Below, in pieces: positions 3,658 through 55,803 of a stretch of 64,000 nt of DNA; the first letter of the stretch is position 1, and each line of letters opens with the position of its first letter. The stretch is from assembly GCA_003116975.1 (NCBI GenBank), contig BGKB01000068.1, positions 124,001 to 188,000 on the forward strand. Direction: 5' to 3'. Under the pieces are notes generated by a model. That model searched no databases and was not told the DNA's origin. It saw nothing but the letters and a program-made list of their open reading frames with translations. Source of the stretch: Aurantiochytrium sp. KH105 (lineage: Eukaryota > Sar > Bigyra > Thraustochytrida > Thraustochytriidae). The position numbers and the translations under genes were made by a program.

Positions 3658-3990
3658 ACTAAAGTGCGTGTATACCCGACCTTTTTATCTATTATGGTGA
3701 GCGCGAAGAATCAATCTTCATCGCAAACCCAAACGGAACGAGAGAGAGAGAGAGTGCAAACAAAAGAACGAGTGCTCTTCGGTCTTTTGTGTGCCGCTCT
3801 CAATCCAAATTTTAAGTCAAGTCAAGTCAAGTCATAAGAAATAAAGAAAATCAAAACAAAAAGGCGAACCTTGTACATGCGAGCAAACCGCAGAGAGAAT
3901 CGAGTTATTCTATCTCCGCTATCGTCGTTGTTCCAGCGTTTTGACCAACATGAATTGACAACGTGCTTGTAATCTTGAAAGTCAAAGGTT
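3658..3990. other. Convergent 3' intergenic region with AAGTC and GA repeats
   Basis: A+T-richer DNA between the 3' ends of two converging genes. It holds a short GA run near 3741-3755 and four tandem AAGTC units at 3814-3833. No gene is seen; it probably carries the 3' untranslated regions of both neighbours. Confidence 0.5.
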
Positions 3991-27289: not shown

Positions 27290-27897
27290 TCTTCGGGTCA
27301 ACAATAGGTATTTATCGTTTCGTTGTCGCTGAGGATGCAGTGATGCCATTCAATCGATAATTTCATTTTTCTTTTCTTTTATTTTTTACCTTGAAGCGCA
27401 TGATGATCATCTTCGATCATAATAATGCATGGCTAAATCTTTTTTCGCGCGATTTCTCAAAGTGACAAAAAGAAGAAGGCTGTTCGTGATCGTAGGCTAG
27501 CAGAGAATGGCAACCCGGCTGTCTTTTATCCTGCCCTCACCCTTGAAAAATAGGTGCATGTAGCCTCGTCAGGCTAACTAACGGAAGGAGAGAAGGAAAT
27601 GACCAGAAACAGCCGAGAGGAGTCTTTTCTGGAACGTTCTGAGATCGTTCTGGAAAACATTGTTCTGAAAACGTTCCGTGAGAGAGATGATGCCGTCCGT
27701 GGTGCAGTGTGTTGCAAATCCTCAACCCCTGCACGCGCTTTGCACGCGTGAGCCTGCTAGACTCGCAGTAGATTTCGCTAGACATTTTTCGTTGCTGGTC
27801 AGGGGCCTCACTCCTTCACCTTCGAGGAAAAGAGACGAAAGAGAGAGAAATTTGACCGGCCGGCAGCGGGTCACGGCAACGGTCGCGGTTGCGGTCC
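27290..27897. other. Intergenic region
   Basis: About 610 bp between two + strand genes. The part after CRY-DASH is A+T-rich, as for a 3' untranslated region. Near 27626-27682 the related words GAACGTTCTGAG, ATCGTTCTGGAA and AACGTTCCGTGAG form short inverted-repeat-like clusters. No gene is seen. Confidence 0.4.
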
Positions 27898-28992
27898 ATG
27901 GGCGGCAGTCGCTTTGAGAACACCCGTAGGCTTGACCGCACGGAGCTCGATGCCACGGCCGCCAAGGTTCGACATGCTGTCAAAAACGCTGGCTGCCAGG
28001 TTCGATGCGCGATGCCGCCAGAGCTGCGCGATAAGTCATCGTTTGGGGATGTCGATCTCATCGTGGCAACTTCTCAAGACAACGAGGGGGACAACGAAAT
28101 GATCTTTAAAGCACACGAGCAAGCAATCGACGCTGCTGCCTCAGCACTGCGTAGCGTGGCGCGCAAAGGCGATGCTGTGACGCAGATGAGCTTGCTCTCC
28201 GAAGAAAGATTTCAAGTCGATCTCGAATTTGTCCCATCGGCATCCTTTGCACTGGCCGTGGCGGTGCATGCGCATGGAGATTTTTGCTGGCTCCTTGGGC
28301 GCGCTCTGCAGCCCCTTGGTCTCAAGCTAACCACACATGGCCTCTTTGTTCGACGAGCTGCGGCAACGCTGCTCGAGGATTTTCTGCTGTCCAGAGATCC
28401 TCATGCGGTGGCAAATTTCCTTGGTGTGTGTCCGTCTTTCTTTGATGGCGAAACAAGCAAGACCTCTGTGCAGGTCTTTGACGCAGTCCAAAAGTCTCGC
28501 TTCTTTCGTACTGACTCCTTTCTAGATGAATTTAATGCGCTCGAGCCGAAAACAAAAGACCAGCGCCGCCGCGCGGCGCGGCGCCCCATGCTCGCTGCAT
28601 TCCAGCACTGGTTGAAAAGTAATCATCGTCCGCAAGAAACAATCGAATATCCCACGCCTGAAGTGGTTGCATCTTCTTTCGAAGCACGAGCTGCCTTTCT
28701 TGCAGCCGAACGTCACGCTCAGGACACTTTGATAGAAATCGAGAACCGTCGGGCATGTCGCGCCTTTATAAGTGGCGGCGACGTCATCCAACGGCATCCG
28801 TATCTTGCGGGTCCTCTCGTAGGCCAGTGCTTGCGCGAACTCTGTATCTCTCATGGCAACGGCAACTGGAAAGCCTACCTCCAGTGGCTGCAAGCGTCGC
28901 CAAGAGAGGACATCCTCAAAGCCATTGATGCGCAAGTAAATGCCTTGCAGCGTCGCGCAAATTGTGATGTTGCGAGGCTCTCTTCATCATGA
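27898..28992 (+). CDS. Predicted nucleotidyltransferase-fold protein
   Basis: 364 residues from the ATG at 27898 (GTCCATGGG context). Residues 46-58 (KSSFGDVDLIVAT) resemble the GS-x-GDxDL motif of the nucleotidyltransferase superfamily, with Asp51 and Asp53 as the likely metal-binding pair, and FQVDLEF (Asp108) fits the third acidic residue on a later strand. The helical regions after about 130 (HGLFVRRAAATLLEDFLLSR) could form the accessory domain. The usual Ser of the motif is shifted (SSFGD), and no poly(A) polymerase or CCA-enzyme landmark is seen. I cannot name the substrate. An inactive or divergent member is possible. Confidence 0.55.
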   Translation: MGGSRFENTRRLDRTELDATAAKVRHAVKNAGCQVRCAMPPELRDKSSFGDVDLIVATSQDNEGDNEMIFKAHEQAIDAAASALRSVARKGDAVTQMSLLSEERFQVDLEFVPSASFALAVAVHAHGDFCWLLGRALQPLGLKLTTHGLFVRRAAATLLEDFLLSRDPHAVANFLGVCPSFFDGETSKTSVQVFDAVQKSRFFRTDSFLDEFNALEPKTKDQRRRAARRPMLAAFQHWLKSNHRPQETIEYPTPEVVASSFEARAAFLAAERHAQDTLIEIENRRACRAFISGGDVIQRHPYLAGPLVGQCLRELCISHGNGNWKAYLQWLQASPREDILKAIDAQVNALQRRANCDVARLSSS

Positions 28993-36389: not shown

Positions 36390-36470
36390 TGGCTTGCTTG
36401 CTTGCTTGCTTGCTNNNNNNNNNNNNNNNNNNNCTGGCTTGCTTGCTTGCTTGCTTGCTGGCTTGCTTCC
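36390..36470. repeat. CTTG tetranucleotide run interrupted by gap
   Basis: CTTG units occur on both sides of the 19-N gap, so the gap was caused by, and lies within, this repeat. The true length is unknown. Confidence 0.85.
36415..36433. other. Assembly gap (19 N)
   Basis: Nineteen undetermined bases inside the CTTG repeat. Translated frames across it are meaningless. Confidence 0.99.
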
Positions 36471-38583: not shown

Positions 38584-41454
38584 ATGGAGCGACCGAACGA
38601 GGGCGGCCCTGCGCCATCGCCCCCCTCCTCCTACCTGCACAACAACCAGCCCAGCGGCGACGCGGATAACGCCCGCTTCGTGGACGACGACAGCCCGCTG
38701 CTCGCGGACTTCGACGTGCTGCACGAGCCTGTGAGCCCGCGCGCCGCCGCGCTCGCCCGCGCCGGTCACGCGCCAGGCCAGCACCACCTGCAGCAGCACC
38801 AGCAGCAACAAGACACTCTCATCTTCGGCCACGCGGGGGACGCCGCCGCGCCGGCCGGCGTCGCGCGCGACGAGGAGGACGGCGGCAAGGCCAACGCGAC
38901 CGAGAGTCACGCCCACAACGGGGACGCCGCCCTGGGCTTGTCGCGAAAGCGGGGCGCATCCTCGCGAGCAGGCGGGTCCCCTTCGGAGACAGTGCCCAGA
39001 TCGCAAGATGCAAGCAGGCTGCGCTCCGCCGACGACGCGACGGCCGTGCAGGGCGCCATCTTTGCGAACGGGACCAAGGAAATAGGAATGGTGAGCACAA
39101 GGGGCATGCAAACGAATGGCAAGAATCCTCGAGCATCGGTCAAGTATCAGCGTCTTCGTAAGAGCCATGACAAGGTGTTAGGGCAGCAGCCACATGAGCC
39201 GCTGCCGCCAAGGGGGCGGCGGCGCTCTCGTCGCGCCAAGGATGCCAGCTCCTCGAGTAACCATGCACAAATGACTGCAAATGCGCACGGTTCGATGCAA
39301 GCCGAAAATTCTACTCTCCCTGTCGTCAACGTCGGTCGTCCTGAAGACGATTCTCTCGCAAATGACCCTGGGGGTAATGCAGCACACCACCACCATCATC
39401 AACTACAACAACATCATCATCAACAACAACAAAATTCGAGCGACAGCCAGCAGCATCTCCAAAGGCGTCTGCCGCACGTTGATCCAAATCTTCGACCAGG
39501 GTCTGCCCCTGCCCAGCAGTTTCTGCATTCCTCAATGGCAGTCCACTCCGGAATGCCACCCGGAGATGAAGTTGGTCAAATGGCAAACCATGAACAAGCA
39601 ACGTCGGAAGCGTCCGCCACGGTCAACAGACGAACCACTTCCGATCCACATGTGACCTCGATGCCCTCACACATTCATTCGTACCCCATGCAGTTTCCTG
39701 GCCCAAGACCAGGCTACTGGGCGCCTCATCCCGGTGCCGGGTGGGGCCATCCAAATATGCCGTGGTCGGCGCAAGGCGTGCAAAATATGCAGGGCATGCA
39801 GAACTTGAAAGGCATGATGTCAAACCCCCCTTACTTGTATGGTGGGTACGGTCATCAACCTTTTGCGTACCCCGGAATGAATTCCAACATGTACAACGGC
39901 GCCTACTTTAACTTCATGCAACCACCACCTCAGATGCCGCAGCACTACTTTCAGCAAGCGCAAATGGGAGCCGCAGCCTATGGACAAAATTCAGTGAACA
40001 CCCAACAAGAGAATCAGTCGGGGTCGCAAGATCATCAGCCAAGAGCACGCCCTAGACATCGCGCTGCCACCAATATCAAGTCTCCATCCAGCGATTCCCC
40101 CGACCACGGGAGTATGCCTGGCGAGGGTCAAAACGATAGCGCTGGCAGAGCCAGCAGCAACAGCAGCGGAAGTGGCAGCGGCAGTGGCAGTGGGGCCGGC
40201 GGAAAAAGCTCTGCCGGAAACGGCGTCGGCAGCAGCAGCAGCAGAAGTAGAAGCAGTGGCAGTGGCAGTGGGAACGGCAGTGAGAACGGGGGCTTGCAGT
40301 CCCAAGACGCGGCGCCTGCCTTTGCCCATCGGAAAAGCCGCAAAGCGCCGAAACGATGGGATGTGGACGCTGTCGCGGAGCTCATGCTCTTTGTGTGTAA
40401 CAATCTGTCCAACAGCAACCGGCACACGCGAAATTGGGCTGCATGTGCAGAACGCTGGAACCGTTGCAAACCGGACTTGCTGTTGAGCAATGACGACCTC
40501 AAGATGAAAATCAAGCATCTCGTTCATGAACGGCCTAATCGCTCGCAGCACAAGACTTGGAACCGTAGCAGCAAGGCCACTTCTGAAAGCGAAGTGTACC
40601 ATCTCTTGGCTCGAGTCGCACCAGAGCCCCCAGATCTCCCCCTGGTTCACATGGCACGCTACATGTTCCATCGCCGCTTCAGCGAGGCGCTCCCTACGCC
40701 GCTCACGACGAGTCACGGCAAACGCGGGAATTCCCTTGTCGGTGGCACGGAGAGTTTTTCCAAGGAAGGATATGCTGGAAGCGATGTTGTCTCCATCACC
40801 TCGTCAGGGACGGGCTCGGAGTTGCTAACAGGCGCTGGAGCTTCATCAGCATCTTCCATGACGACTTCGTCATCGTCCCGGGGGAGCTCGCGACCGACGC
40901 GTGGGCGTCGCGAGCCCCGTGGCTATCTTGGTCTTTTGGCCTGGGCGGAAACGTATCGCAAGATCGTCGTCCAATGGATGCGCTCGGCGCACATGCAGCA
41001 TGGCATGAGCATATACGAGCTGCAACGTGCGCTGAGCCAAATTTTCACGCCATACGACATCAGCCTCGTCCTTCGCGGCGGATGCACCTGTCCGGCGTGC
41101 GCGCCGTGGGCTCTCAGCTGGAATCCTCTTGCATTCACTGCTTCGTCCGACGGCCAGCTCCAGCTCGCGCACACGCGAACACACCTTCGCATTTTGTGTG
41201 AGATTCTCGCGTGCTATGACTCGGCTCTACACAATAACAGTCTGCAGATGTGGTATGAGGCTGCGATCGCCAGCGTTGAGGCTGTCGCGACGTGGTCCAT
41301 TGACGAGTTCTCAGATTTTGTGGAGCCCTTGCTCGTGAGCATGGAGGATTTCGCCGCCTTTTCTGCGCACTTGCGCAATTTTTACTCCCAGACCGCCGAC
41401 AGCAATCGCAGCGCATCTGTCGCTTCCATTCTCCAGAGCATCGTTGCAGATTAG
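38584..41454 (+). CDS. Clustered family member A: His/Gln-rich protein with single-knuckle variant of the novel Cys domain
   Basis: 956 residues from the first ATG at 38584. Residues 1-590 are low-complexity: His/Gln runs, a Met/Pro/Gly/Tyr-rich middle (NMQGMQNLKGMM region) and a Ser/Gly run. The C-terminal part (about 590-945) aligns with the three genes at 43.1, 49.0 and 51.7 kb. Visible matches are the LKMKIKHLVHERPNR block, the HMARYMFHR segment, YRKIVVQWMRSAH, the C834-T-C836-P-A-C839-x-x-W knuckle and the long helical end (TRTHLRILCEILA). Unlike the others it has a Ser/Gly-rich insert of about 80 residues between the two halves and lacks the later C-x2-C pair. It ends without the LDRLxL tail. 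The function is unknown; the composition suggests a nuclear or RNA-associated regulator (inference). Confidence 0.8.
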   Translation: MERPNEGGPAPSPPSSYLHNNQPSGDADNARFVDDDSPLLADFDVLHEPVSPRAAALARAGHAPGQHHLQQHQQQQDTLIFGHAGDAAAPAGVARDEEDGGKANATESHAHNGDAALGLSRKRGASSRAGGSPSETVPRSQDASRLRSADDATAVQGAIFANGTKEIGMVSTRGMQTNGKNPRASVKYQRLRKSHDKVLGQQPHEPLPPRGRRRSRRAKDASSSSNHAQMTANAHGSMQAENSTLPVVNVGRPEDDSLANDPGGNAAHHHHHQLQQHHHQQQQNSSDSQQHLQRRLPHVDPNLRPGSAPAQQFLHSSMAVHSGMPPGDEVGQMANHEQATSEASATVNRRTTSDPHVTSMPSHIHSYPMQFPGPRPGYWAPHPGAGWGHPNMPWSAQGVQNMQGMQNLKGMMSNPPYLYGGYGHQPFAYPGMNSNMYNGAYFNFMQPPPQMPQHYFQQAQMGAAAYGQNSVNTQQENQSGSQDHQPRARPRHRAATNIKSPSSDSPDHGSMPGEGQNDSAGRASSNSSGSGSGSGSGAGGKSSAGNGVGSSSSRSRSSGSGSGNGSENGGLQSQDAAPAFAHRKSRKAPKRWDVDAVAELMLFVCNNLSNSNRHTRNWAACAERWNRCKPDLLLSNDDLKMKIKHLVHERPNRSQHKTWNRSSKATSESEVYHLLARVAPEPPDLPLVHMARYMFHRRFSEALPTPLTTSHGKRGNSLVGGTESFSKEGYAGSDVVSITSSGTGSELLTGAGASSASSMTTSSSSRGSSRPTRGRREPRGYLGLLAWAETYRKIVVQWMRSAHMQHGMSIYELQRALSQIFTPYDISLVLRGGCTCPACAPWALSWNPLAFTASSDGQLQLAHTRTHLRILCEILACYDSALHNNSLQMWYEAAIASVEAVATWSIDEFSDFVEPLLVSMEDFAAFSAHLRNFYSQTADSNRSASVASILQSIVAD

Positions 41455-42689
41455 ACGGCCTCGGGCGAAGCATGAACGATGCCTTCAGAATCACCAAATG
41501 ATTTTGAAGGCGCACCATCAATGGGTGGGAAGCACTGTATCGCTTTCGGGCGCACTCAGCATGCATGCATGATTTCTTTGGTCGAAAGTCATGCTTTTCG
41601 GTTCGTTATGAACCCCACTCGAAACACGACCCATGACAATTCCCTGTGTTTGAGTTCACCGTGGTATGTTATACCACTCTCTCTCTTACTACCGACCTAC
41701 TTTTTATAAAAATGAGAAATTGAGATCGCCTTTGAATGAATCAATTGCGCTTTCCGTCCCCCTTTTTTTCCGAATCGCTGCTCTTGCTTGCGCGTTTCCT
41801 CTCCCCTCCCCCCCTCGAGATCCAGCGACCACTTGAATTGAACCAAAACCCTCCTCAGAAGCTGCCCTCCAAAACCCTGCTACTTTTCGATCCACGCATG
41901 AGTAATCGCACTATCAAACTCTGGCTGGCGCTCGCAACCCTCGCGTACGAGCCGTGGCTCTTTTACCTCTCCCCCACCCAGATAATCAGACTCAGTCTCG
42001 CCTGACCACACACACACCATGACACGCACTCACTCACGCACGTGTCCCGTGACGACGACTTTTACCCACCCACCCACCTCCCCATTTCGTGATACAACCT
42101 CCTTCCGCCGCCTCGCCGCCGCGCTTGCAAACCCCGCCGCGTTTCTCCAAATCCGCAGCAGAAATCCTCCTCGCCGTCGCCGTCGCCGTCGCCTTTGCGA
42201 ACCCTGCCGGCCAGGTTCTCGCGCGCTCCTATTCTGCGCTCCCGGTGGCCCCTGCGAAGAGCTGCAAATGAAGAAATGTAGTAGGCCTAGTAGTATACTA
42301 TACTCTGTTCTGCGACTTCTGCTCATAGTTTTACTACCAGCAACGCGAAGCCCGCGGCCTCCGGAACCCGCCCAGACTCGCACCATACCCCTCCCGGCGG
42401 CCCTGGCCCCGCTACACGCCCGGCGCCGGCTCCGCAACCCGGGGGCGCCGCGCGCGTCTCTGCTGAGCCCTGGAGTTGGCGGCATAGCGCGATAAGCAGC
42501 GGCGCCGCCGCCGCGACGCGCGAGCCCGCAGACCCGCAACCCGTGCGCGAAGCCCGACGCAGCCGCGCCCGCAGACAGCCGCCCCGACGCGCCGGATAGA
42601 GGAGCGGAGAAGCACAGCGCAGCGCAACGCAACGCAGCACAGCGCAGCGCGCAGGATCGCGTCGCGCTGGAGCGGGCGAAGTATCATCA

Positions 42690-42749
42690 TCTCGTCTCGT
42701 CTCGTCTCGTCTCGTCTCGTCGCGTCTCGACTCGACTCGACTCGCTCGA
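42690..42749. repeat. CGTCT and CTCGA pentamer run
   Basis: About seven tandem CTCGT units followed by CTCGA units, in the putative leader of family member B. Confidence 0.8.
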
Positions 42750-43020
42750 CCCGCCGGCGAACGGAGCGCGCGCGAGCGGAGGCCTTGTTCGCCCCCGGGC
42801 GCGCTACGCGAAGAAGGAGCGAGGCCGCGCAGAGGCACGGCGGCCGTGTCGCAGCGACGTACCTTGTCTCGGCGGAAGGCTGTCGTACTCGTTGCGTCAA
42901 GGTGCACGTGCACGTGCACGCGCCCGCACGAGACACCGGCACAAGCTGTCTCGGTCCCTCGGTCCCTCGCTCGCTAGCTCGCTCGTCCGCGCGGAAAGGA
43001 GAGAACTGCCTGCCAAGGGG

Positions 43021-43030
43021 AATAAAAATA
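43021..43030 (+). promoter_or_regulatory. TATA-like sequence before family member B
   Basis: AATAAAAATA in otherwise G+C-rich DNA, about 50 bp before the ATG at 43074. If it directs initiation, the leader is very short. Confidence 0.3.
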
Positions 43031-43073
43031 GACGCTCTTGTTTGCCTACAGCGCGAGGCCACGGAAGCGAACC

Positions 43074-44921
43074 ATGGCGCAAGAACAGGAGCACGATATG
43101 CTGCTGCAGGCGCCGCTGGAGCCCACCCAGGATGAAGACTCCATCATGAAAGGATATGAAGACGATGGCGAGGCCCTGCAAACGTCGCAGACGACTTTCT
43201 TCGACGAGATGGACACCAAAACCGGCAAGGACGCGACCGGTCTGGGATTCAATCAAGACCTCCTTGAGGAGGAGGTCCATCTCGGCGGCTCGCAACCCCC
43301 GGATCACGATGTGACCCTCGCAGCCTCGTACGATGACACTTTTGACGACGGCGTCGCCGCTGGGGGCCTCATTGGCAGCGAGTTCGCGAACGGAGACCTC
43401 CAAGACCTCGAGGACCAATTGAGCAAGGACTCGTACGACTTTCACGTGAGCCCGCAAATGCACGCTTGCGTGCAGCAACAAGAGATCCGTGCGAACAGCG
43501 TCCCCGATATTGACGCGTTCATGGCCGCCACCGATGAAGCCTTCGACAAGGAGCTGATCGAGCCTTTGGCCGACGAACTGCTCGCCTCAATGACGCTGGG
43601 CCGCAAGCGCATGGCCCCGGCTTGGTCACCTTCCGACGGAGCCGACGAGAGCGACATGGAGACCGCCGCCGCGCTCTCGCCGCCACAGACGCCCGCCTCG
43701 CCGCCAGGGTCCCCTGGGTCCGCGCAGCAAACGCCGGCATCTGTATCCGTGCCAATGCGAGCAGCGATCCCCATGACGCGTCGCCACAACGTGCCGCGGC
43801 CCTCAAGAGAGTCCCAGCTCACGGTGCAACAGACCATTATCGTTTACAGCACCCTTGCTCATCAAGTGGATAACACGGTGCGGCGAGAGCGCAACTTTGC
43901 AGACCTGTACAGGAAACTGTCTGACGCGTACAGGTGGATGCAGACCACCTTTACAGATATTTCGCTCTTCAAGCAAAAAATTAAGCTTTACCTGCAGGAG
44001 CGACGCACTCGGCAGAATCTGAACTTTTGGAGAAAGCTCACGGCGAACCAAGGGGATCCCAAGAAAACGCTCAGCTTTCTCAAGTCAGAGTTCAGCCAGA
44101 CGCTCATTCCCGAAAGCATCGACCTCGGCCCCATTGCCGAGTACCTGGCGCACTTAGTGGTGAAGAAGGCAAAATCCCCGGGTTGCATAAATGACTGGGA
44201 TGCGGACGCGCGCAAGGCCATGATCGACCTCCTCGTCGCTGTGCACCAAGAGGAAGGTGTCGGCGCCTTTACGCTGGCGCACGGGGCCGTGTCTGGTCTA
44301 ATCACACTCGGTGCTGTCGAGATGACCATCGTCTCCAACTGCACCTGCAAGACATGCGCAAGCTGGAATGTCCCATCAGGCAAACAGACGCACGAGACTA
44401 TTTTGGCTTGGACGAAAACACGCATGAGCATCATGCGCGACGTGCTCAAGGCACACGTCGAAGCTGCTGAACGAGGCACTTGGTCCACCTTTAAAACTCT
44501 TGCGCACCGGATTCCGCAAGTTGAGAACTGGTCTGTCGACCGACTCAACAACTTTGTTCAAAGCGTGCACAACACTGAATCCTGCGAGTTTTGCGCTCCC
44601 ACCCGGAAGGTGCGCCGCAAGCGCAGCGGAACTGACGCTGACGATGAGGATGACTGCTGTTCAGTGTCATCATCTTCGTCGTCTTCTCCATCTTGCAGTG
44701 ACGACGAGGAGGGTGAATGCGAAAATGCGAACGCGGACACCTCCTTCGTGCCCATTCCCAGCGGAAAAGACCTTGAATTGCTCGCTTGGGAAGAGGCAGA
44801 TATTCCCCTGCAGCTGCAGTTCGAGGACGAAGAGGACGAAATTACCGTGGGTGCCGCGGGCGTGCCTACGCTCTCCGAAATTGCCTCTCTCACAGACGGC
44901 ATTGCCAAGGTCACTGTCTGA
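43074..44921 (+). CDS. Clustered family member B: acidic protein with novel two-part Cys domain
   Basis: 615 residues from the ATG at 43074 in a strong context (ACCATGGCG). Residues 1-180 are acidic with scattered hydrophobics, and 185-235 are Pro/Ser-rich (SPPQTPASPPGSPGS). The family domain spans about 247-510: FKQKIKLYLQERRTRQ, a helical EYLAHLVVKKA, DARKAMIDLLVAVHQEEG, the knuckle C423-T-C425-K-T-C428-A-S-W, TKTRMSIMRDVLKAH, and the pair C504-E-F-C507. A basic RKVRRKRS follows, which could be a nuclear localisation signal, then a Ser run and an acidic tail. Two Cys motifs about 75 residues apart could bind one zinc ion or support two small sites; this is inference. The acidic and Pro-rich N-terminus is the kind of arm found in transcription activators. 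No intron. The family is not one I know. Confidence 0.82.
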   Translation: MAQEQEHDMLLQAPLEPTQDEDSIMKGYEDDGEALQTSQTTFFDEMDTKTGKDATGLGFNQDLLEEEVHLGGSQPPDHDVTLAASYDDTFDDGVAAGGLIGSEFANGDLQDLEDQLSKDSYDFHVSPQMHACVQQQEIRANSVPDIDAFMAATDEAFDKELIEPLADELLASMTLGRKRMAPAWSPSDGADESDMETAAALSPPQTPASPPGSPGSAQQTPASVSVPMRAAIPMTRRHNVPRPSRESQLTVQQTIIVYSTLAHQVDNTVRRERNFADLYRKLSDAYRWMQTTFTDISLFKQKIKLYLQERRTRQNLNFWRKLTANQGDPKKTLSFLKSEFSQTLIPESIDLGPIAEYLAHLVVKKAKSPGCINDWDADARKAMIDLLVAVHQEEGVGAFTLAHGAVSGLITLGAVEMTIVSNCTCKTCASWNVPSGKQTHETILAWTKTRMSIMRDVLKAHVEAAERGTWSTFKTLAHRIPQVENWSVDRLNNFVQSVHNTESCEFCAPTRKVRRKRSGTDADDEDDCCSVSSSSSSSPSCSDDEEGECENANADTSFVPIPSGKDLELLAWEEADIPLQLQFEDEEDEITVGAAGVPTLSEIASLTDGIAKVTV

Positions 44922-45271
44922 CGTGCGACCTCGCTCGTTCGGCCATGCCGCGACAGAATCATATAAAATTTCATAAGTGTCAGCATGGCGTATCTTAATT
45001 TTTGGTCTCACCTTTCATGATGATTCTTGCGCAAAATCGTCGGCGAAAGAGAAAAGATCTATTCATTAAAATTGGCCTGTATCTCCTTCCACGACTCTAC
45101 TACTCGATTCTTTTCTTTTCTACTCTTGCAGTAGCTGCGGCTTTACCTTTCGGAATTTGTGGTACTACGCAAATGTGAAACGGAAAAGGAATTTAAAAAA
45201 GTTGATCGAGCATTCTAAATTGATTGGCTGCATCTAGCAACCGCCGTCATCGCTGCTCAAGAAAGGGTCCT
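44922..45271. other. Convergent intergenic region
   Basis: A+T-rich 350 bp between family member B and the dynamin-like gene, on the scale of two 3' untranslated regions. No gene is seen. Confidence 0.45.
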
Positions 45272-45421
45272 CTAGATATTCCATGAAACGCTCTCTTTTT
45301 CATCGTCGGAGTCGTTCTCTTCATCATCGGAGTCGTTCTCTTCATCAATGTACGGGACCCTGAATCCCCCGGCGCCAGAAACGCTCTCTTCATCTTCGGA
45401 GTCGCTTTCTTCTTCATCGTC
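45272..45421 (-). other. In-frame acidic extension after the dynamin-like stop codon
   Basis: Directly after the TAG of the dynamin-like gene the same frame stays open for 49 more codons until a second TAG. The extension is composed of Asp/Glu/Ser repeats that resemble the last residues before the stop (EESVSG occurs on both sides). It looks like former or still-used coding sequence: a recent stop mutation, stop-codon readthrough, or an assembly error. Confidence 0.6.
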
Positions 45422-47626
45422 CTAGACGCTCTCTTCCGCATCGCCAGAAACGCTCTCTTCTTCGTCGCAGAGGCCTTCCTCATGGAGGACAGAAGCAGTC
45501 GTGCCATGAAGAAAGTTCTGAGGGAAAGTCTTCTCTTCAAGTGACGTTTGCAACTCGTCGGTGATGCCGCTCTCAGTGAGGTACTTTGCGTATTGAAAAT
45601 CCTCGGGAAGATCTTCCAGGTCTTGTAGCTCCTGCAGGACATGCACGGTGCGGTAGACGGCATCGATTTGCTCCTCAATGCCTGAACGCGTATCAAATAC
45701 CTTGGGGGCCTCCCTGAGCTCAACCTCACAATCGGAGTAGAGGCTCTCAGATAGAGCCTCGGCCGAGAACGAACTTGCGAGGCTTACGAACACGGACTCG
45801 CGAACATTCGACCAGATCTGCTCGGGATCGATCGTGTCGCTCTTCTTTAAGAGGGCATCCTTTAGTTGCGCAGCTGCACAGAGAAAGGCTTCCTCAACGA
45901 TCGCTTCGGACGCTGCGTTGAAGCTGGCATCCAAGGTATCTTCAATGTGCTTTCTGACAAAGAAGAAGCGCCCAATCTTGAGTGGGATCTTTGATTTGTC
46001 GAGCACCTCACGCATCACGAGCTCCTTGTAACTATCCCATGTAGTGTATGCGAGACCTACGATATGGTCCTTGAGTTCCGCCTTGTGATCGCGGAAAAGA
46101 TGGGCTCTGCGTGCGAGGGTTTTCGATTTCGGGAAATCCAACATGAAATGGAGAAAAGCGGGGACATCAATCTCCCCGAGCAATTTCGCTGTTGGCATGT
46201 CCATGAAGACGTCAAGGCCTCGCTTGATCTCGTCTTTTACCATTTTCTGCGTGATGGCTCGAGGTGTCATGCCAAGATCCCAGAGGTTGCTGAAGCGCAC
46301 CTTGAGGGCGTCCCTGCAGCGCTTGAGCTCTGCATCCACCCATCGGTCGCGCATGTACACGCGAATCATCTCATTCAGTGCGTTTAAAACGCCGGACATG
46401 CCATGTTTGTCCGCATCGTACTCCATGTCTTCACTATCACAAGCTTTTCGCAGCGCGATCACCTCTTGGGCAAAAGAGTCTCGCAAAGAGGTCATGTCAA
46501 TGTGCTTTCGCGTGTCTCGATTCGCCACAGGGACGACACAGTCAACATTCACGTCGTCTGGCATGACTGCTGGGTCGCGCTCGAGACGCGCCTTGAGGTT
46601 CTCCTCGCCACCTGGCATGTCGACCCTGGTCAGCACCACAACGGTGGGTTTCTTGGCCTCACGCAACAATGGCCAGATGCCGTTGTTATGAAGCGATTCC
46701 GATCTCGCGGATACCACCGCAAGCACGAGGACGTGCTCTTGCCGGAGCATACGCTTTGTAATGCTCATTGTGGCCTCTCTGGCAGCTTCTGGAGCAGTCA
46801 CCATCCCGGGCAGATCGACCAGGTCAATGGTCGGCACAGAGGGAGCGCGAATTTCAATCTGAACTTCGCGGTCGATGACCACATGGCGGAAATTGTCTTC
46901 AGGGTGCTCTTTGCTGATGAACTCGCGAATCAGATCCGCAACTTGTGAAGAGAATGGCTCGTCGGTCTGATCCCCCGTCACGCAGATCTGGGGATCGGTC
47001 TCACGAACAATCTCGCCCGTGTCGAGGTCCTTGACGCGGATCGTGACCTGATTCTGGTGACGACTTGTGCGAAGCATAAGTCGAATGGGCATGCGCGTGC
47101 AGAATCTGCTGTCGCGCGGGAAGATGTCGCGCATGGCGATGCGTTCAAGAGTCGAGGACTTTCCCTGATTCTCAGTGCCGCACACAATTATCTGCGGTAG
47201 TTCGAGCTCAAAGTTACCTTGAACTTTCAAGGCTGCTTGAAGAAGTTTTGCATACGGTGCATCGGGAGCACAGAGGACACCAGCAATACCTTTGTTGTGC
47301 AAAGGATTTACTTGAGCTGGGCGCGGCTCACCTTCAGTATCGGCGGCCTCGACAAAACTGTCGTTGCCGTCTTCTCCTTGTTCTTGTTCTTGTTGGTACG
47401 GCGAGAGCGCGAGGCGATAACCATTGCGACAGGCCTCTGTCTCGACCGTTCGGAACGCCTCGTGGAGGCGCCGACGCTGTTGTTCTTCGGTCGCCGTGCC
47501 GACCAGCTCGTCGTACGCGGCCCGAACTTCTTCGTCTGTCAGTTCGACGCAGTCGTTGATAGAAAGGACCTCGAAGGCGGTCTTGTCCACGCGCACCCAG
47601 CTGTCCTCGCTCGCGGCGTCGTCCAT
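45422..47626 (-). CDS. Dynamin-like GTPase with degenerate J-like N-terminus
   Basis: 734 residues from the ATG at 47626. The GTPase domain has the P-loop GTENQGKSS (about 150-158), CTRMPIRL with the switch-I Thr, DLPG (271-274) and TRVD (333-336). The long helical remainder fits the middle and stalk regions of dynamin-related proteins, which assemble on membranes and remodel or cut them. Before the GTPase domain, residues about 17-75 follow the helix pattern of a DnaJ domain (FEVLSIND, DEEVRAAYDELV, LHEAFRTVETEACRNGYRLA) but lack the HPD motif. There is no PH or proline-rich domain and I could not delimit a GED. The protein ends in an acidic repeat that continues in frame past the stop. It lies on the opposite strand inside the cluster of four related genes. 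The target membrane is unknown. Confidence 0.85.
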   Translation of the reverse strand: MDDAASEDSWVRVDKTAFEVLSINDCVELTDEEVRAAYDELVGTATEEQQRRRLHEAFRTVETEACRNGYRLALSPYQQEQEQGEDGNDSFVEAADTEGEPRPAQVNPLHNKGIAGVLCAPDAPYAKLLQAALKVQGNFELELPQIIVCGTENQGKSSTLERIAMRDIFPRDSRFCTRMPIRLMLRTSRHQNQVTIRVKDLDTGEIVRETDPQICVTGDQTDEPFSSQVADLIREFISKEHPEDNFRHVVIDREVQIEIRAPSVPTIDLVDLPGMVTAPEAAREATMSITKRMLRQEHVLVLAVVSARSESLHNNGIWPLLREAKKPTVVVLTRVDMPGGEENLKARLERDPAVMPDDVNVDCVVPVANRDTRKHIDMTSLRDSFAQEVIALRKACDSEDMEYDADKHGMSGVLNALNEMIRVYMRDRWVDAELKRCRDALKVRFSNLWDLGMTPRAITQKMVKDEIKRGLDVFMDMPTAKLLGEIDVPAFLHFMLDFPKSKTLARRAHLFRDHKAELKDHIVGLAYTTWDSYKELVMREVLDKSKIPLKIGRFFFVRKHIEDTLDASFNAASEAIVEEAFLCAAAQLKDALLKKSDTIDPEQIWSNVRESVFVSLASSFSAEALSESLYSDCEVELREAPKVFDTRSGIEEQIDAVYRTVHVLQELQDLEDLPEDFQYAKYLTESGITDELQTSLEEKTFPQNFLHGTTASVLHEEGLCDEEESVSGDAEESV

Positions 47627-48965
47627 CCTCCCTTTATCCAAGAATCTGCGCGCGACGTATCGGGTTTGCCGCGCCTCGCGGACGGGCTCTCCTCCTTCCT
47701 TGCTTTTCTTCTTCCATTCTTTTCTCCACGCGCTGTGTCACGTTTCTCCAAAGCGTGATCACCATCATGGCCTAGACCGGCAGTCACTTTTTTCTCTTTC
47801 CCTGTCATAGTCAACTTCTTCTGGCTGATGACATTGTCCATTTCTACTCGGGTGAAACTTGACTTTACTAATCGTAGCCTAGGCCTGGGCCTAGTAGACA
47901 CGAAAAGAGCCTGTGCCAGGCAGCACGCGCGCGAAGTGTCCATTCGCACATCCCTTAAATCGGCCTGCCGCATGCCCTCACGGAGAATCTATAAAAGGGC
48001 TGGACTACGGGGGGCAAGAAGCGCGAGAGGCGCCTTAACGAGTTTTGCTCCTACGCAATCTGCGCCCAGTGGCGGAGAATCCACCTTGCGAGGCGATCTT
48101 GAAGAGCCACCTGCAGCTAGCTGCAAGCGTTACGATTCCGAACCCAAGCGGGGCGGCGCTGCAGACGGATGCCAGGGCGCATGTCATGGAAAATGTCTTC
48201 GACCAATGGCAAAAAAATGCTCCTCTCACGGATCACAGATTGTTTGCCATCGTCGCAGGGCGTGTATCTATTCCCTATCCTCTGCCACGATCCTACGTGT
48301 CATGTTCGTGCAGCAGCAGCAGCAGCAGCAGCAGGCGCCGCCATCTTCCCCGTCCTCCTCGGCCAGAAATTTCCTCTCGCCGCCGCGTCCAAGCTGGAGA
48401 TTTCCGCGCGTCGGTGGGGCTCCGCGCGCGCATCTCCTTTCGTTCCTCACCCGTGTTCTCGTGGAGCCGGCCAGTGATGGCGACGGCAGAGTTCGTGCGA
48501 GGCGAAGAAAAGAAAGAACATGGGGCAGGCCGACTCGCCGGACTCGAGAGCATGCGGAGAGCATGCGGCACGTGCACGGACGGAGTGCGCGCGGCCGGAC
48601 TGCGCTTGCTCGTTCATGACGCACTCACTCGGGGCTGAGGCCACGGGCAGCGCAGAGAGCAGGGCAAAGCAGAGCAGGCATCGAAAAGATCCTCTGGAGA
48701 GTAGAGCAGGCCAGGATAGAGGTTGCAGCCACGGACGTCGATCGCACTCCAAAAAAGATACCATGGAGAAAGCCGGCCAACGCGGAAGTGTAGGTTCTTA
48801 GCCCACCAAGATGCGTAGGTGTCGCACTCCAAAGCCGAAATCAAAACCCAAACCCAAAGCGAGTCGAAGAAGCCTGCACCTCAGAGCCCGAAGCGCGCTA
48901 GGAACAAGAAAGACAAAGAATAGCAATCAACGATCAAGAAAAAGATCAGCGAAACCGAGAAGAAT
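47627..48965. other. Divergent intergenic region between dynamin-like gene and family member C
   Basis: 1.3 kb with a good TATA-like box (47990) on the + strand and a CAG run near 48311-48332. Frames up to 260 codons cross it on the + strand but have no domain and overlap frames of similar length on the other strand. Most of it may be the leader of family member C. Confidence 0.45.
47990..47997 (+). promoter_or_regulatory. TATA-like box
   Basis: TATAAAAG, the closest match to a classic TATA box in the window, nearly 1 kb upstream of the family member C start. It would imply a long leader, an unseen leader intron, or an unrecognised small gene. Confidence 0.4.
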
Positions 48966-50822
48966 ATGGACAGCAACAATGTGAACATTTCCGGGGCTGG
49001 GCAAGAAGTCGAAGGAAACGGAGGAAACAAAGTCTGCGCGCAAGCATTCGACAATGCGTTTGAAGATGAAGATGGCACTGGCGGGATGCACGACAGCGGC
49101 AGCGCAAAGTCGACCGAACCCACGAACAATCGTGGTGGCTTCGAGCACCCTGTCCTTGAGCGGGAATTATCCCAGGCTTCTTTGCAATCTTTCCCAACGC
49201 CGCCAAATTTTCCGCCTTCGGACTACGATTTTACGCAATGTTTGGAGGGGTTCAAGGCTCCTGTCTCACCGGGTGCCAACGGCAGTAGCGGAGGCTTGCC
49301 GTCCTTGTTCCTTTTCGCTGAAGACGACCTTGGAATAACTGCGCCGTGCTTGCACAATCCATCTCGCCCGGGTGACCCTAGCATAATTTCGGGTGCGCAG
49401 CAACCTCTTGAATGTACAAGTGCAGCATGCCAAGATGCAGGACCACAGAGGTCTGGTGACGAAGTCGAGACGCTCACGACCCAGCCATATGAGTGCATGG
49501 AAGCCACTGCTGATGGCAACACAGAGATGCATGGGTGTCACTGCAGCGTGAAAACATCCACAACGGAGCCTCCCCTTCGTTCGCCATCAGAGGTGCCCAA
49601 TGCTGTCTCTCTGGACAGTACGACCAAGACTCCCCAGATCAGCCCTTCCGTCAAAGACAAAAAGAATCCGCGCAAACGCAAGCTCGATCTTGATAGCGCT
49701 ACAGCCTTCTTCGAGACCGCCAAGTTGATGCAATGTGCCACAAATGGACAGAGCGAGAAACGAGGCTTCCGTGAGACGTACATCCAATTTTGCTCAAGTC
49801 CCTCCGCAAAGAATGTGTCCATTACACCAGACCAATATAGGATGAAGGCTAGATCTTTTTTGGGCGAACGGCAGACCAGAGGGAAAGCTCGCGAGCAGCT
49901 TTTTGAAAAGTTCACGAGCGAGGCCTGTGTCGAGGCTGAACTTGCTCGGTCCTTTTCCCATTGCAAGCAAGAGGGTTTCAGCTTTGCGCCAATCACAACG
50001 TATTTGTGGAACGAGATTCAGCTGGCGCGGCAAGAAGTGCAACATGTACAAAAGGCACGACGCGCACAAGTAGGGGAAAATTGCACGCACGAAGTGCAGA
50101 AAGCACGGGAGAAAAAGCCTTCATTCAGCGGAGGATCTTACTGGCCCGAGCCCGCGAGGCAGTGTCTCGTGGACCTCCTCGTCGATTCACATCAGCGTCA
50201 CTGCATGACCGTCTCCCAAATTGCTGCTGCCAGTTATTGGTTCTTGACCAAGTTCCATGTCGAGGTCATCATTTATTCCCGCTGTGCTTGCCTGGACTGC
50301 GGCTTGTGGGGGATGTACGGCAAACAGAGCACTCCGGGTCAGTCGGTCCTTGAATACACGCGCCTCCAATTCGAGGTTTACCACGTGCTCCTTTCGGCGC
50401 ACAAGTATGACGATCCCACGCTCCTAGAGCGGTGCCCTCAACTTCTTGCTCTGAGTGAACGTCAACGAAAGTCTTTGCTTGGAAAGTTGCACGACTGTAC
50501 GAATTGCCCGCGCTGTCGGAGCTCCTCGAAATCCGCTCGCACTCGTTGCAATAGCTCCAGCAGCTACGAGTCCATCGATGATGGCTATGGGGATGACCAT
50601 GAGGATAAGAACGAGGACGAGGACCTCATGGACGAGGGCACGGGCATTCAACGCATTACTGCTGATGGTGCGGCCGCAGTTGCCCACACTCTCTTTCCTC
50701 AATCCGAGGACTTTCTTGACGATGAGGATTCTGACGAAGACGACGAAGACGACGAGAAGATTAAATACGAGGAGAATGCCATCATTCTTTCACTCGACCG
50801 CCTCGCGCTCAATAACCATTAG
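48966..50822 (+). CDS. Clustered family member C: acidic protein with novel two-part Cys domain
   Basis: 618 residues from the ATG at 48966. Residues 1-235 are acidic and Pro/Ser/Gly-rich and contain one basic KDKKNPRKRKLD stretch that could be a nuclear localisation signal. The family domain spans about 239-520: LDLDSATAFFETAKLMQ, YRMKARSFLGERQTRG, the aromatic ITTYLWNEI, ARQCLVDLLVDSHQRH, the knuckle C440-A-C442-L-D-C445-G-L-W, TRLQFEVYHVLLSAHKYDDP and HDCTNCPRC (C511, C514, C517). A Ser-rich linker and a long Asp/Glu run follow, and the protein ends SLDRLALNNH. It is closest to family member D: both share the FLGERQ/ALGERQ block, the LLSAHKY/ILTSHKY block and the terminal LDRL motif. No intron. 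The function is unknown. Confidence 0.83.
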   Translation: MDSNNVNISGAGQEVEGNGGNKVCAQAFDNAFEDEDGTGGMHDSGSAKSTEPTNNRGGFEHPVLERELSQASLQSFPTPPNFPPSDYDFTQCLEGFKAPVSPGANGSSGGLPSLFLFAEDDLGITAPCLHNPSRPGDPSIISGAQQPLECTSAACQDAGPQRSGDEVETLTTQPYECMEATADGNTEMHGCHCSVKTSTTEPPLRSPSEVPNAVSLDSTTKTPQISPSVKDKKNPRKRKLDLDSATAFFETAKLMQCATNGQSEKRGFRETYIQFCSSPSAKNVSITPDQYRMKARSFLGERQTRGKAREQLFEKFTSEACVEAELARSFSHCKQEGFSFAPITTYLWNEIQLARQEVQHVQKARRAQVGENCTHEVQKAREKKPSFSGGSYWPEPARQCLVDLLVDSHQRHCMTVSQIAAASYWFLTKFHVEVIIYSRCACLDCGLWGMYGKQSTPGQSVLEYTRLQFEVYHVLLSAHKYDDPTLLERCPQLLALSERQRKSLLGKLHDCTNCPRCRSSSKSARTRCNSSSSYESIDDGYGDDHEDKNEDEDLMDEGTGIQRITADGAAAVAHTLFPQSEDFLDDEDSDEDDEDDEKIKYEENAIILSLDRLALNNH

Positions 50823-51653
50823 AGTGCCGCCTCAGAGACCGCAATGCTTTTGCAAACATAAGCAATTCAATCTTTCTGTACACTGAGAAAAGCTTCAGGG
50901 ACCATGCGCTGTAGTCTCACCAGCATTTCTAACCTAAGTTTTGCGGTGGCTCGGCCACTTCCGAGCTTAATCTCACCCTCTTCAGACGCAGCCTCCTCAG
51001 CCCTTGCGAGCTCTCCTTCACCTCGGTCGCTCTCGACGCCTCACCTCCCGACTCGCCTTCGACCCTCGGCCCCTTCTTCCCCCGCCGGCTCCGCCGCCCC
51101 CTTCGGCGCCCCTCTTCTCCCACGGACGCTCTGCTTTTTCGCGGGTCCGTCTGTCTGTCAATCTGGCTGTCCGTCGCAGCTGGGGGGGGGGTCCCCGCGC
51201 CGCGGCTGCACGGGCCGCCGCCGCTCCGGCCCTTTCCTTCTCCGGCCGCAGCTGGCGCTGCGCTGCGCTGCGCTGCGCTGCGCTGCGCTGCGCTGCGCTG
51301 CGCTGCGCCTCCCTGGAGCCGGCGAGAGCGGCCCCGCAGGTTCTCCTCGCGCGGGCTGCCTCTCTCTCCTGCCGCGCTCTCGCGGGCGAGCGCGCGTCCG
51401 GCGCCGGTTCTCGCCCGCTCTCGCGGCCTCTGCGGCCCCCCCTTCCCGCCCCAACCGCGCCTGCGAAACCCGCGCGGACGGGGCGACGCGGGCCGCGCGG
51501 CAGCAGCAGAACGCGAACGCGAGCGAGCGCGCGGAGAGCGGCGGAACCCGGCGCGAGCGCGCGGGGAAGGCGGAGCGGGCGGGCGAGAGGAGCGCGCACA
51601 CGGGCGGCGCGAGCGCGTGCACGGGCGGCGCGAGCGCGTGCACGACCGCGGAG
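50823..51653. other. Leader region of family member D with GCGCT run
   Basis: 830 bp between genes C and D. The frame of gene D stays open through it to an ATG at 50904, adding 250 residues of Ser/Pro, then Arg/Ala-rich sequence that includes a pentamer-encoded RCAAL repeat. It has no similarity to the N-termini of the other members, so I read it as promoter and leader. Long frames also exist on the opposite strand. Confidence 0.5.
51255..51307. repeat. GCGCT pentanucleotide run
   Basis: About ten perfect tandem units of GCGCT (equally CTGCG). They lie upstream of family member D. Confidence 0.9.
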
Positions 51654-53267
51654 ATGTACGCTGCGACGGGTACCAAGGCGGAGAGGGGCGCTCCGGGCGT
51701 GGAGGTGTACGACGAGGACCTTCCCTACGCTTCGGAGATCCCTGATGGCATGACCGGAGAAGAAATCGAATACGTCGGAGACCCAAACCTCGACATGCCC
51801 AAGCTGTCTTACACGGATGATGACATGCTAGAGATTGCCGGCCTGCTCAGCGACAATTTGGCCCCGATGCCGTGTGAGTCTGGCTTTCCGCCGTCGCATT
51901 CTGACATTGAGCCGATCATGGAAGAGTCCCTTTTCACCTCTGACAACGAGCCGCTCGCCTCTACGGGACAAGAGTTCCTCGGCGGCCAAAGAGATTATGA
52001 TGACTTTGCGTTGGTGTCGCCGCCACCGCCACCGCCGCTGCTCCCTGCCATGGTAGGGTACCAATTTGACTCGAGCGTCTCGCCACCTGGATCTCCCAAC
52101 GACCAAGCGACCGTCCCTTCATCCCCTGCGTCCGAGCCAGATAGCGTGTACCGGACACCAAGCACGCCCGGCTCGCAAAAGCAAAACAGACTGAAGCTCT
52201 CGCTGGACTGCGCGCTTGCTCTGTTCCGTACGGCATCGCTCATGGGAATGAGCCGCAGCGATCTGCGCGACTTCACAGCATCCTTCGAGGCCTACAAGCA
52301 GTTTCCTTGCACAGCGGGATCGACGTGGAAGGCGCAAGATTATCGCCAAAAGCTGAAACACGCTCTGGGTGAGCGGCAAGTGAGGACGGTGAGGCAAAAT
52401 CAGATGATTCGGTCCTTCAGGGACGAGGCCGCCGTCCTGGCGGAGCTCCAGAAATCGTTTCCCGAACGCACAGAAAGCGGATTTGACTTCCAGCACATCG
52501 CCGCACATCTGTGGAAGGCGACATGTGCCTCGCGTGCGGAGGCTCAGAAGAAGGGAAGATCCTTCATTGCGCCCAAATTCAAGTGCGGCCTTTTATGGGA
52601 CGGTCTCGCTCGAGAATCTCTTGTCGAGCTCTTGGTGGAGGAACACCGGAAAGCGGATTTGAACTCGAGTGTCGAGAAGAGTTGGTGGTTTCAGAAGAAG
52701 GCCCAAGTGGAACTCCTCGTATTTTCGCACTGCAAATGCAGCAATTGCAGCTTGTGGCATCTCGACATCAACAGTGCGAGCCCAGGAATGTTGGAGTTGC
52801 GCTTCACGAGGCTCCGCAGCGAGATTTACCACGCCATTCTTACGTCTCACAAGTATCAGGAACCCATGTCTCGCCTCAGACGCGATTTCCCCCAGCTTAA
52901 AGCGGTTGACCAAAATATCCTGGAAGAGATGCACGTGCACCTTCACGACACGGAAGAATGCCCCGTTTGCCAGCGCCGATCAACCCGTATGCACCGCGCC
53001 GCGGCTCAACTTGAGAGCGAGGAGAGTGACGAAGACAGCGACGAGGAGGATGACGACGACAACGTTGGCAAGGCTCCGGAAGGTATTGATGGACTTGTGC
53101 TGGCCAAGGTTCTCATGCCGCTTTCGGCCGATCACTACGACGATGGCGACGAGGGTGTGGAAACGGACGATGAGGAAGAAGAAGAAACGAATGTGGAGAA
53201 CGGGGTGGCGCAGGACACGGACGTTGCCGCCCTTGCCCTGGATCGTCTCACACTCAGCAGTAGCTAG
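51654..53267 (+). CDS. Clustered family member D: acidic protein with novel two-part Cys domain
   Basis: 537 residues from the ATG at 51654 (GAGATGTACG). The frame also opens at an ATG at 50904, but the extra 250 residues are low-complexity. Residues 1-120 are strongly acidic with hydrophobic spots (DDDMLEIAGLLSDNL), and 120-175 are Pro/Ser-rich (SPPGSP, SPASEP, TPSTPGS), offering proline-directed phosphorylation sites. The family domain (about 180-440) has KLSLDCALALFRTASLMG, YRQKLKHALGERQVRT, IAAHLWKAT, ARESLVELLVEEHRKAD, the knuckle C360-K-C362-S-N-C365-S-L-W, TRLRSEIYHAILTSHKYQEP and HDTEECPVC (C436, C439). An acidic stretch follows and the protein ends ALDRLTLSSS, matching the end of member C. 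No intron. The function is unknown; regulator-like by composition. Confidence 0.83.
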   Translation: MYAATGTKAERGAPGVEVYDEDLPYASEIPDGMTGEEIEYVGDPNLDMPKLSYTDDDMLEIAGLLSDNLAPMPCESGFPPSHSDIEPIMEESLFTSDNEPLASTGQEFLGGQRDYDDFALVSPPPPPPLLPAMVGYQFDSSVSPPGSPNDQATVPSSPASEPDSVYRTPSTPGSQKQNRLKLSLDCALALFRTASLMGMSRSDLRDFTASFEAYKQFPCTAGSTWKAQDYRQKLKHALGERQVRTVRQNQMIRSFRDEAAVLAELQKSFPERTESGFDFQHIAAHLWKATCASRAEAQKKGRSFIAPKFKCGLLWDGLARESLVELLVEEHRKADLNSSVEKSWWFQKKAQVELLVFSHCKCSNCSLWHLDINSASPGMLELRFTRLRSEIYHAILTSHKYQEPMSRLRRDFPQLKAVDQNILEEMHVHLHDTEECPVCQRRSTRMHRAAAQLESEESDEDSDEEDDDDNVGKAPEGIDGLVLAKVLMPLSADHYDDGDEGVETDDEEEEETNVENGVAQDTDVAALALDRLTLSSS

Positions 53268-53806: not shown

Positions 53807-54922
53807 TCAGCGCGCGCGCATTTGCAGACTCGCGAGGATGGCAATGGCCTGGCTCTCGGAGTGTGTAAAGGGGTGAGAGAGTGCCGCTGCTGTTGCTGCA
53901 GGAAACTTGATTTCATCATCGTTCAGAGCGTCTCGGTGCGACTTGCCCTCCTTTTCGATCCTTTTCTTGGTGTCGTGGCGCTCGAGGTCGCGGCCGAGAA
54001 GTTCGTCTTCGGGAATGGTTGCGGGAGGTGGTGGGGAAGATCGCCGGACTTTGGGAGGCGATCCGCCTTCTGGCCAACGATCAAGGAGATCTCCAGCGGA
54101 GCGCTTTCTTGCATGTTTGCTGAGCGTGGCGGGACCATTTGCGGCGTGGCCTGTGATGGACATTAGCGAGACCGTGGACTCGGAGCCGGTGGAGCGCGGC
54201 GAGGCGTCGCCTGCACCGGAATTGGCTGCCTTGGGTGGCCGCGTGTGCGAGTTAAGAGTGGGCAGCATTTGCTGCGACTGGGCCAGGATTGGTGTGAGAA
54301 GCGGGAGCGATGCGGGCTGGTGCATGTAGGCTGGGCCGACGCGCTGCTGTTGCTGCTGGTGGAGATGCTGAAGTTGCTGGAGATGATGTTGTTGCTGTTG
54401 CTGGAGATGGCGCTGCTGCTGCTGCTGCTGTTGCTGTTGCTGCTGCTGGTGGTGGTTATGTTGTTGATGATGATGGAGTTGCTGTTGTGACTGCTGTGAC
54501 TGCTGCTGCTGCTGCTGTGATTGCTGCTGCTGCTGTGATTGCTGTTGCTGCGCCTGAGCGGATTCACTCGTGGTCCGTGCAAAGCTGCCAACGCCGCGGG
54601 CGACCTTCATGCTCGGGTGAATCGACTTGATGTGCCTGCGGAGGCTGCCGAGCTGGCCAAAGCTCTTCTCGCAAAAGGAGCACTGATAGCGGATGCCGTC
54701 GTGAATGGCCTCCTTGTGGAGACGCAGAGAACTTTTGGTAGTGAAGGTCTTGTCGCACTGGTCGCAGGGGACACGCACGGAGCTGTGCATCTTTTCGTTG
54801 TGCTCCTTGAGAACATTCCTATGCACGAACTCCTCGTTGCACATTTTACAGCGGTACATCTTGTTGGCTTTGCCGTCGTCTCCCGGGCTCTCGGGGCCCG
54901 TCTTGGCTTGCGTCATTGTCAT
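53807..54922 (-). CDS. C2H2 zinc-finger protein with polyglutamine tract
   Basis: 371 residues from the ATG at 54922 (a second ATG is two codons later). Three C2H2 fingers lie at about 22-110: YRCKMCNEEFVHRNVLKEH, VPCDQCDKTFTTKSSLRLH and YQCSFCEKSFGQLGSLRRH, each closed by a second His, with linkers shorter than the classic TGEKP. They are followed by a long Gln/His-rich tract encoded by CAG/CAA-type codons (about 125-215), then a Ser/Pro-rich part with a KHARKRS basic patch, and a C-terminal helix-like end. A DNA-binding transcription regulator is likely from the fingers. It is convergent with the four-gene family but unrelated in sequence: its Cys/His spacing differs from their C-x-C-x2-C knuckle. 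Confidence 0.88.
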   Translation of the reverse strand: MTMTQAKTGPESPGDDGKANKMYRCKMCNEEFVHRNVLKEHNEKMHSSVRVPCDQCDKTFTTKSSLRLHKEAIHDGIRYQCSFCEKSFGQLGSLRRHIKSIHPSMKVARGVGSFARTTSESAQAQQQQSQQQQQSQQQQQQSQQSQQQLHHHQQHNHHQQQQQQQQQQQQRHLQQQQQHHLQQLQHLHQQQQQRVGPAYMHQPASLPLLTPILAQSQQMLPTLNSHTRPPKAANSGAGDASPRSTGSESTVSLMSITGHAANGPATLSKHARKRSAGDLLDRWPEGGSPPKVRRSSPPPPATIPEDELLGRDLERHDTKKRIEKEGKSHRDALNDDEIKFPAATAAALSHPFTHSESQAIAILASLQMRAR

Positions 54923-55803
54923 CTCTCTCTCTGTCTCTCTTGCTGACGTGCGTCCCGCAAAAGGAGTGGAGGGATGGAGCAAGGAGGGCGTGCAACGATC
55001 GATCGAATGAACGAACGAACGAACGATGTGCAATTGCTTTTGCTTTTGCTTTTGCAATTGCGTTTGCAATTGGCGGTTCCGCTGGCGCGCTTCTTCCCAG
55101 CAGCCAGCCGGCCAGCCGGAGGAAAAAGCACGAAAGAAAAGGAAAGCAGGAAGTCAGATGGAGGAGGAGCCTTGTCCCTCTCTCACTCTCTCCCTCTCTC
55201 TCTCTCTCTCAGGCCCTCCTTCCTGCTCCTGCTTTGCCTGCGGTGCCTTCGCTTTTCTGCTTGCCCGATCGATGGCTGGCTGAGGCGCGCGACCCCCGGT
55301 TTTGGGACTAACTCTCGGCTGCGGGCGCTCCACGCTCGGGCGCGCCGCGCTTTGGCTGGCTGCGAGCGCGCGCGGCGCCGAGTCGAGCCGAGTCGAGCTG
55401 AGCTCTCACCACCGACCTGGTGCCAGAGCACGGGCGAGGAAGAAGGCAGCGACGGAGGGGAGTGCGAGGAGTGCGCCACCCGTGAACGAGAGTCAGCGCC
55501 TGCGAGGCGGGTGCTGCTGTGCTAGCTCGCTAGCTACGCTGTGCTACGCTATGCTGCGCTGCGCTCTGCGCTGAGCTGCGCTGAGCTCGGCTGTGATGCG
55601 AAGCGAAGCGGTGCCAAGCGATGGATGCGAAGAAAGGACGCGCCAATCAATGCGCGATGGATGTGGTGAGATGTGATGTGATGCACGGCAGCTCCGGCGC
55701 TCTCGGGCGTCACGAATGGACGGATGAACGCGAAGTTTCACGCGCGTGCGTGCCTGCCTGCCTGCGTGCGTGCGTGCGTACGAGGCCCCGGCTCCACTCC
55801 GCT

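Follow-up and report, generated by a model that had tools for sequence, protein, structure and literature searches.

A predicted helical protein family with two putative zinc sites and a fast-changing tandem pair in a thraustochytrid genome

A stretch of 64,000 nucleotides of the genome of the marine protist Aurantiochytrium sp. KH105 (contig BGKB01000068.1, positions 124,001 to 188,000; hereafter the window) carries four related genes, A to D, and raises the question of what kind of protein they encode. The answer that we favour, at an even chance of being right, is a family of helical, two-zinc nuclear transcription regulators, in which a basic N-terminal part (N-part) would lie on DNA, and a C-terminal part (C-part) would be folded by zinc; the flanks of B, C and D are acidic, and C and D form a fast-changing tandem pair. 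All four plus-strand open reading frames (ORFs) proposed by an earlier reading of the letters alone (the sequence-only reading) are present and uninterrupted (Table 1). They are neighbours, as that reading had described, but an opposite-strand dynamin-like gene interrupts the run.

One domain at eleven loci

The four proteins share one homologous domain, 263-350 residues long, as the sequence-only reading had proposed. Hidden Markov model (HMM) profiles built from the 20 domains of the other ten family loci, with both copies of the tested locus removed, recovered A, B, C and D at E-values of 5.4e-27, 2.2e-55, 1.7e-32 and 1.8e-34. The decoys were 603 ORFs of the window and 400 shuffled versions of the four proteins, and the best of them across these searches reached 0.15. 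Likewise, a profile made from only the seven loci outside the window recovered all four, with E-values between 4e-59 and 3.9e-12 and a best decoy of 0.35.

The family comprises eleven loci in this genome, each with two copies (22). They lie on contig pairs C68/C21 (A-D, C68 being the window contig), C27/C32 (E), C81/C264 (F), C10/C81 (G), C207/C202 (H), C164/C231 (I) and C165/C9 (J and K, adjacent). The genome was searched with eight protein seeds (A, B, C, D, E, G, I and K), and match counts are lower bounds: G matched 22/22 copies (E up to 1), B and E 21 each, I 19, D 18 and K 16, and seeds A and C, at stricter cut-offs, matched 14/22 (E up to 0.1) and 6/22 (E up to 0.001). No place outside the family fell below E 0.03 with any of the eight seeds. 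The weak non-family matches were on C64 (E 0.031, seed B, stop-interrupted) and on C146 and C42 (E 0.07 and 0.095, seed A, both interrupted). With seed E, weak matches to the N-part only were seen at one place on each of two further contigs, C12:69300-69479 (E 0.64) and C22:102835-103011 (E 0.77); these are possibly a distant family member.

Because all eleven loci are present twice, we read the assembly (76 Mb, 367 contigs) as both haplotypes of one diploid; a hybrid carrying two parental subgenomes would give the same picture. A 36 kb segment of C21 aligns in a single orientation with window positions 27666-61867, with the order A, B, C, D conserved and a nucleotide identity of 82-95% per block, the exception being a stretch of 190 bases within C, at 78%.

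Protein B shares 98% identity with FCC1311_067312 of the thraustochytrid Hondaea fermentalgiana, which indicates that the host genome is a thraustochytrid close to Hondaea. This evident orthologue (615 residues, differing from B at 14 positions and from its second copy at 7) shows no structural difference, is unnamed and has no Pfam domain listed. It was the sole relative in the protein database, in a search that reaches only relatives sharing five-residue words; none was found among PDB sequences, viral contigs or prokaryote contigs. That A-D match no described family, another claim of the sequence-only reading, was borne out by Pfam-A searches, in which HMMER filters discard most matches above E 0.1. 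Full-length A-D matched no family at E up to 1. For the seven members beyond the window (H truncated at its locus end) the best E was 0.041, from Lant_dehydr_C in K (13.9 bits, with a cut-off of 24.4). The 22 domains matched six families, one or two rows each and none above its curated cut-off; the best was again Lant_dehydr_C (E 0.0028). Within the reach of these searches, the sequence family and its ligand order appear new, and a zinc-binding probable regulator is a kind already known. The family is so far known from one thraustochytrid genome, the only one searched directly, and from that one Hondaea protein; it may be lineage-specific, as the sequence-only reading had it.

Adjacent members group in the tree, C with D (support 100/100) and J with K (99/98, with a long-branch warning; about 5 kb apart), which supports tandem duplication for C/D and makes it likely for J/K. 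The sequence-only reading had extended local duplication to all four window genes. A and B sit on long branches, and forcing A, B, C and D into a single clade costs 1.0 log-likelihood unit (approximately unbiased test, p-AU 0.43); the single clade is thus neither shown nor rejected, and local duplication may or may not extend beyond C/D to A and B. F and G are 70% identical across nearly 800 residues, so a long stretch N-terminal to the domain is conserved between them; it has no Pfam match.

Conserved residues and predicted fold

Exactly eight His/Cys columns, and no ninth, are shared by at least 14 of the 22 rows in the domain alignment. Four of them (H148, C180, C182 and C185 in B-domain numbering) form an H + CxCxxC set present in 22/22 rows. 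The others (H218, H256, C261 and C264) form an H...Hx4CxxC set present in 20/22; both copies of A lack all four and have Y, L, D and A instead. Four residues kept and four lost together suggest two putative four-ligand zinc sites, HCCC and HHCC, and we read A as a natural one-site variant of the putative two-zinc domain. The single Cys knuckle and Cys pair of the sequence-only reading, correct as a metal-type His/Cys set, are thereby refined to two putative four-ligand sites, the second absent in A.

Other invariant positions include R30, E66, R67, R70, P126, W132 and W188. The earlier motif list stands for ER-x2-R, for the knuckle (CxCxxC-x2-W), for the short aromatic helix and, in B, C and D, for the later CxxC, which in full is Hx4CxxC. 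Its R-x5-LV-x2-H is properly R-x6-LV-x2-H; A has MR for LV, and the second D copy has G for R.

The predicted model of B is all-helical (pLDDT, a local confidence score, 75.8; pTM, a global one, 0.62), and the weaker model of D has its main helices in the same order. Helices are predicted in the N-part of the B domain at residues 8-21, 32-42, 53-63 and 70-80. Across the family the net charge of the N-part (residues 1-82) is +2 to +11, positive at 11/11 loci, and that of the third helix region (53-72), which includes the invariant ER-x2-R, is +2 to +7.

Known zinc and DNA-binding folds offer partial likenesses. TAZ domains are all-helical and protein-binding, and hold zinc between helices by HCCC ligand sets. 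In predicted fold and ligand type, the helical model of B and the invariant H + CxCxxC set would resemble them; here, by contrast, the spacing in A-D is H-x28-31-C-x-C-x2-C and an HHCC set is added. No TAZ match appeared at E up to 1, either for full-length A-D or for the 22 domains.

The N-part helices with their basic third region recall Myb/SANT repeats. None of the 22 domains matched PF00249. When the N-part was compared by hhalign with ten different Myb repeats from the same genome, the probability was 0.1% and a single column was aligned, against values of up to 1.6 for 40 column-shuffled controls; the C-part reached 7.2 and the whole domain 5.1. The VIA-align structural list for the predicted model held no Myb chain, a result that excludes nothing. 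True Myb repeats are numerous in the genome, with 150 scored matches among 337 candidates, each above the cut-off, counting both genome copies.

Structural matches to Rns, an AraC-type regulator, and to further bacterial regulators lay within helical-model noise, at 6-13% identity and interspersed with unrelated proteins. C2H2 zinc fingers have the order Cx2-4C...Hx3-5H; A-D gave no zf-C2H2 match, and the ligand order here is H, CxCxxC, H, Hx4CxxC. Fungal Zn2Cys6 domains have six conserved Cys, and here there are five Cys and three His columns.

Divergence of C and D between genome copies

The C and D proteins change unusually fast between the genome copies. We compared nonsynonymous (dN) and synonymous (dS) change by Nei-Gojobori counts on one pair of copies. 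Nine of the eleven loci show purifying selection on the domain, with dN/dS of 0.16 (A), 0.08 (B), 0.03 (E), 0.17 (F), 0.13 (G), 0.21 (H), 0.04 (I), 0.03 (J) and 0.37 (K), a range of 0.03-0.37, as against 1.07 in C and 0.56 in D. At full length the value is 1.30 for C, whose two copies share 78% protein identity, and 0.99 for D (85%). The seven comparison genes of the region (A 0.29, B 0.14, dynamin-like 0.24, C2H2 0.30 and three ORFs at 0.15, 0.18 and 0.29), when pooled, differ strongly from both (C, p 1.2e-19; D, p 3.9e-11). C has a dN of 0.117 and D of 0.076, versus 0.014-0.059 in those seven. Their dS (C 0.090, D 0.077) is within the range of the seven (0.07-0.20), so nothing points to old balanced alleles.

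The second copy of C (positions 1501-3813 of the extracted C21 locus) has an internal repeat in its N-part, with an open frame of 771 residues versus 632 in the window copy. This makes the N-part of C difficult to align, so that its domain value is the safer one. For D a longer open frame begins at 50904; we prefer the start MYAATGTK at 51654, because it is kept in the second copy and most of the GC-rich sequence upstream differs.

Whether this speed reflects merely relaxed selection after tandem duplication, without any special role, seems to us evenly poised. C and D are duplicates, their dS is not raised, the excess in D falls mainly in flank residues 1-180, outside the domain, and neither dN/dS value is significantly above neutral (Fisher test, C p 0.23, D p 1.0). 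Yet the copies contain no stop codon, where uniform random substitution without constraint predicts 7.1 in C and 4.2 in D, and only 1/300 (C) and 2/300 (D) simulations were free of any, which makes a complete lack of constraint unlikely. Furthermore, the frames and all eight candidate ligand residues are kept in both copies of C and of D, and the other adjacent family pair, J/K, diverges without such speed.

Candidate functions and gene surroundings

The proteins are most likely nuclear, perhaps DNA-binding, regulators. The C-part would fold round two zinc ions, one held by His + CxCxxC and the other, which A would lack, by His...Hx4CxxC; the basic helical N-part would grip DNA, and the disordered flanks, very acidic in B-D, may recruit the transcription machinery. 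The most acidic 60-residue stretch carries a net charge of -18 in B, -25 in C and -26 in D, compared with -4 to -15 in 12 control proteins from the window; E, at -16, lies slightly beyond the most extreme of these. The acidic flanks of the sequence-only reading are thus strong in B, C and D but not in A. In C and D, the acidic tails are followed by similar hydrophobic peptides, SLDRLALNNH and ALDRLTLSSS, possibly an activation or export motif.

Several observations weigh against this regulator reading, and the earlier claim of a regulator was not upheld as it stood. No DNA-binding family or fold was matched; acidity clearly exceeds the 12 controls in B, C and D alone, with J and K level with the extreme control value and no excess in A, F, G, H or I; and motifs resembling nuclear localisation signals are equally common in controls (8/12). 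The two-site reading is tempered too: three of the four residues lost in A are closely spaced, and the loss is seen in one lineage. Because acidity exceeds controls in few members and such localisation-like motifs are common in controls, we hold DNA binding as a working hypothesis only, with the chances about even.

The main rival, which we regard as possible though doubtful, is a zinc-stabilised helical scaffold that binds proteins or RNA and regulates without touching DNA itself. It would suit the all-helical models of B and D with their metal-type residues, the missing DNA-binding family matches and the members without very acidic tails, but sits less easily with an N-part that is basic at every locus and with the positive third helix region and its invariant ER-x2-R. 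Bolder, and in our judgement unlikely, is a new two-zinc, all-helical DNA-binding domain invented by thraustochytrids, with C and D recruited to a recognition system or caught in an arms race and diverging fast for that reason; mating compatibility, self/non-self recognition or silencing of a selfish element may be the setting. A domesticated transposon or virus protein that spread to eleven loci is very improbable: the genes are multi-copy and intronless and no cellular relative outside Hondaea was found, but Pfam scans gave no transposase or viral domain, none of 99 viral-contig matches to two short patterns was a relative, and all eleven loci occur in both genome copies, nine of them under purifying selection.

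Elsewhere in the window, genes with ordinary Pfam matches lie in 1648-34278 and 62909-63910 (P-type ATPase, RhoGEF-FYVE, primase small subunit, VTT, M12B-like protease, photolyase, FHA, protein kinase and ABC-2 transporter). Among the ten ORFs scanned there, only 27889-28992 has no Pfam match. The window's single N run is at 36415-36433.

Table 1. Family genes, their domains and adjacent genes in the window.
Feature	Position	Strand	Remarks
Gene A	38584..41454	+	956 aa; long Gln/His/Ser-rich N-part; domain close to C-end; HCCC-only variant
Domain of A	40339..41379	+	candidate site 1 H803, C834, C836, C839; site-2-aligned Y878, L917, D922, A925
Gene B	43074..44921	+	615 aa
Domain of B	43803..44612	+	270 aa; candidate site 1 H391, C423, C425, C428; site 2 H461, H499, C504, C507
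Basic N-part of B domain	43803..44048	+	residues 1-82; net +8; candidate nucleic-acid-binding part
Helical C-part of B domain	44163..44612	+	bears all eight conserved His/Cys
Dynamin-like GTPase gene	45422..47641	-	between B and C; outside family; Pfam PF00350, 1.8e-18
Gene C	48966..50822	+	618 aa; acidic C-tail
Domain of C	49665..50534	+	candidate site 1 H409, C440, C442, C445; site 2 H479, H509, C514, C517
Gene D	51654..53267	+	537 aa; acidic C-tail; tandem sister of C
Domain of D	52179..52988	+	candidate site 1 H331, C360, C362, C365; site 2 H399, H431, C436, C439
Neighbour gene	53807-55069		Pfam match to zf-C2H2

If the regulator reading is true, thraustochytrids, which are grown for omega-3 oils, would possess eleven related genes for zinc-dependent regulators, a family that annotation by domains overlooks. 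The family would also supply its own test material: A would serve as the naturally occurring one-site variant, and C/D are a fast-changing pair.
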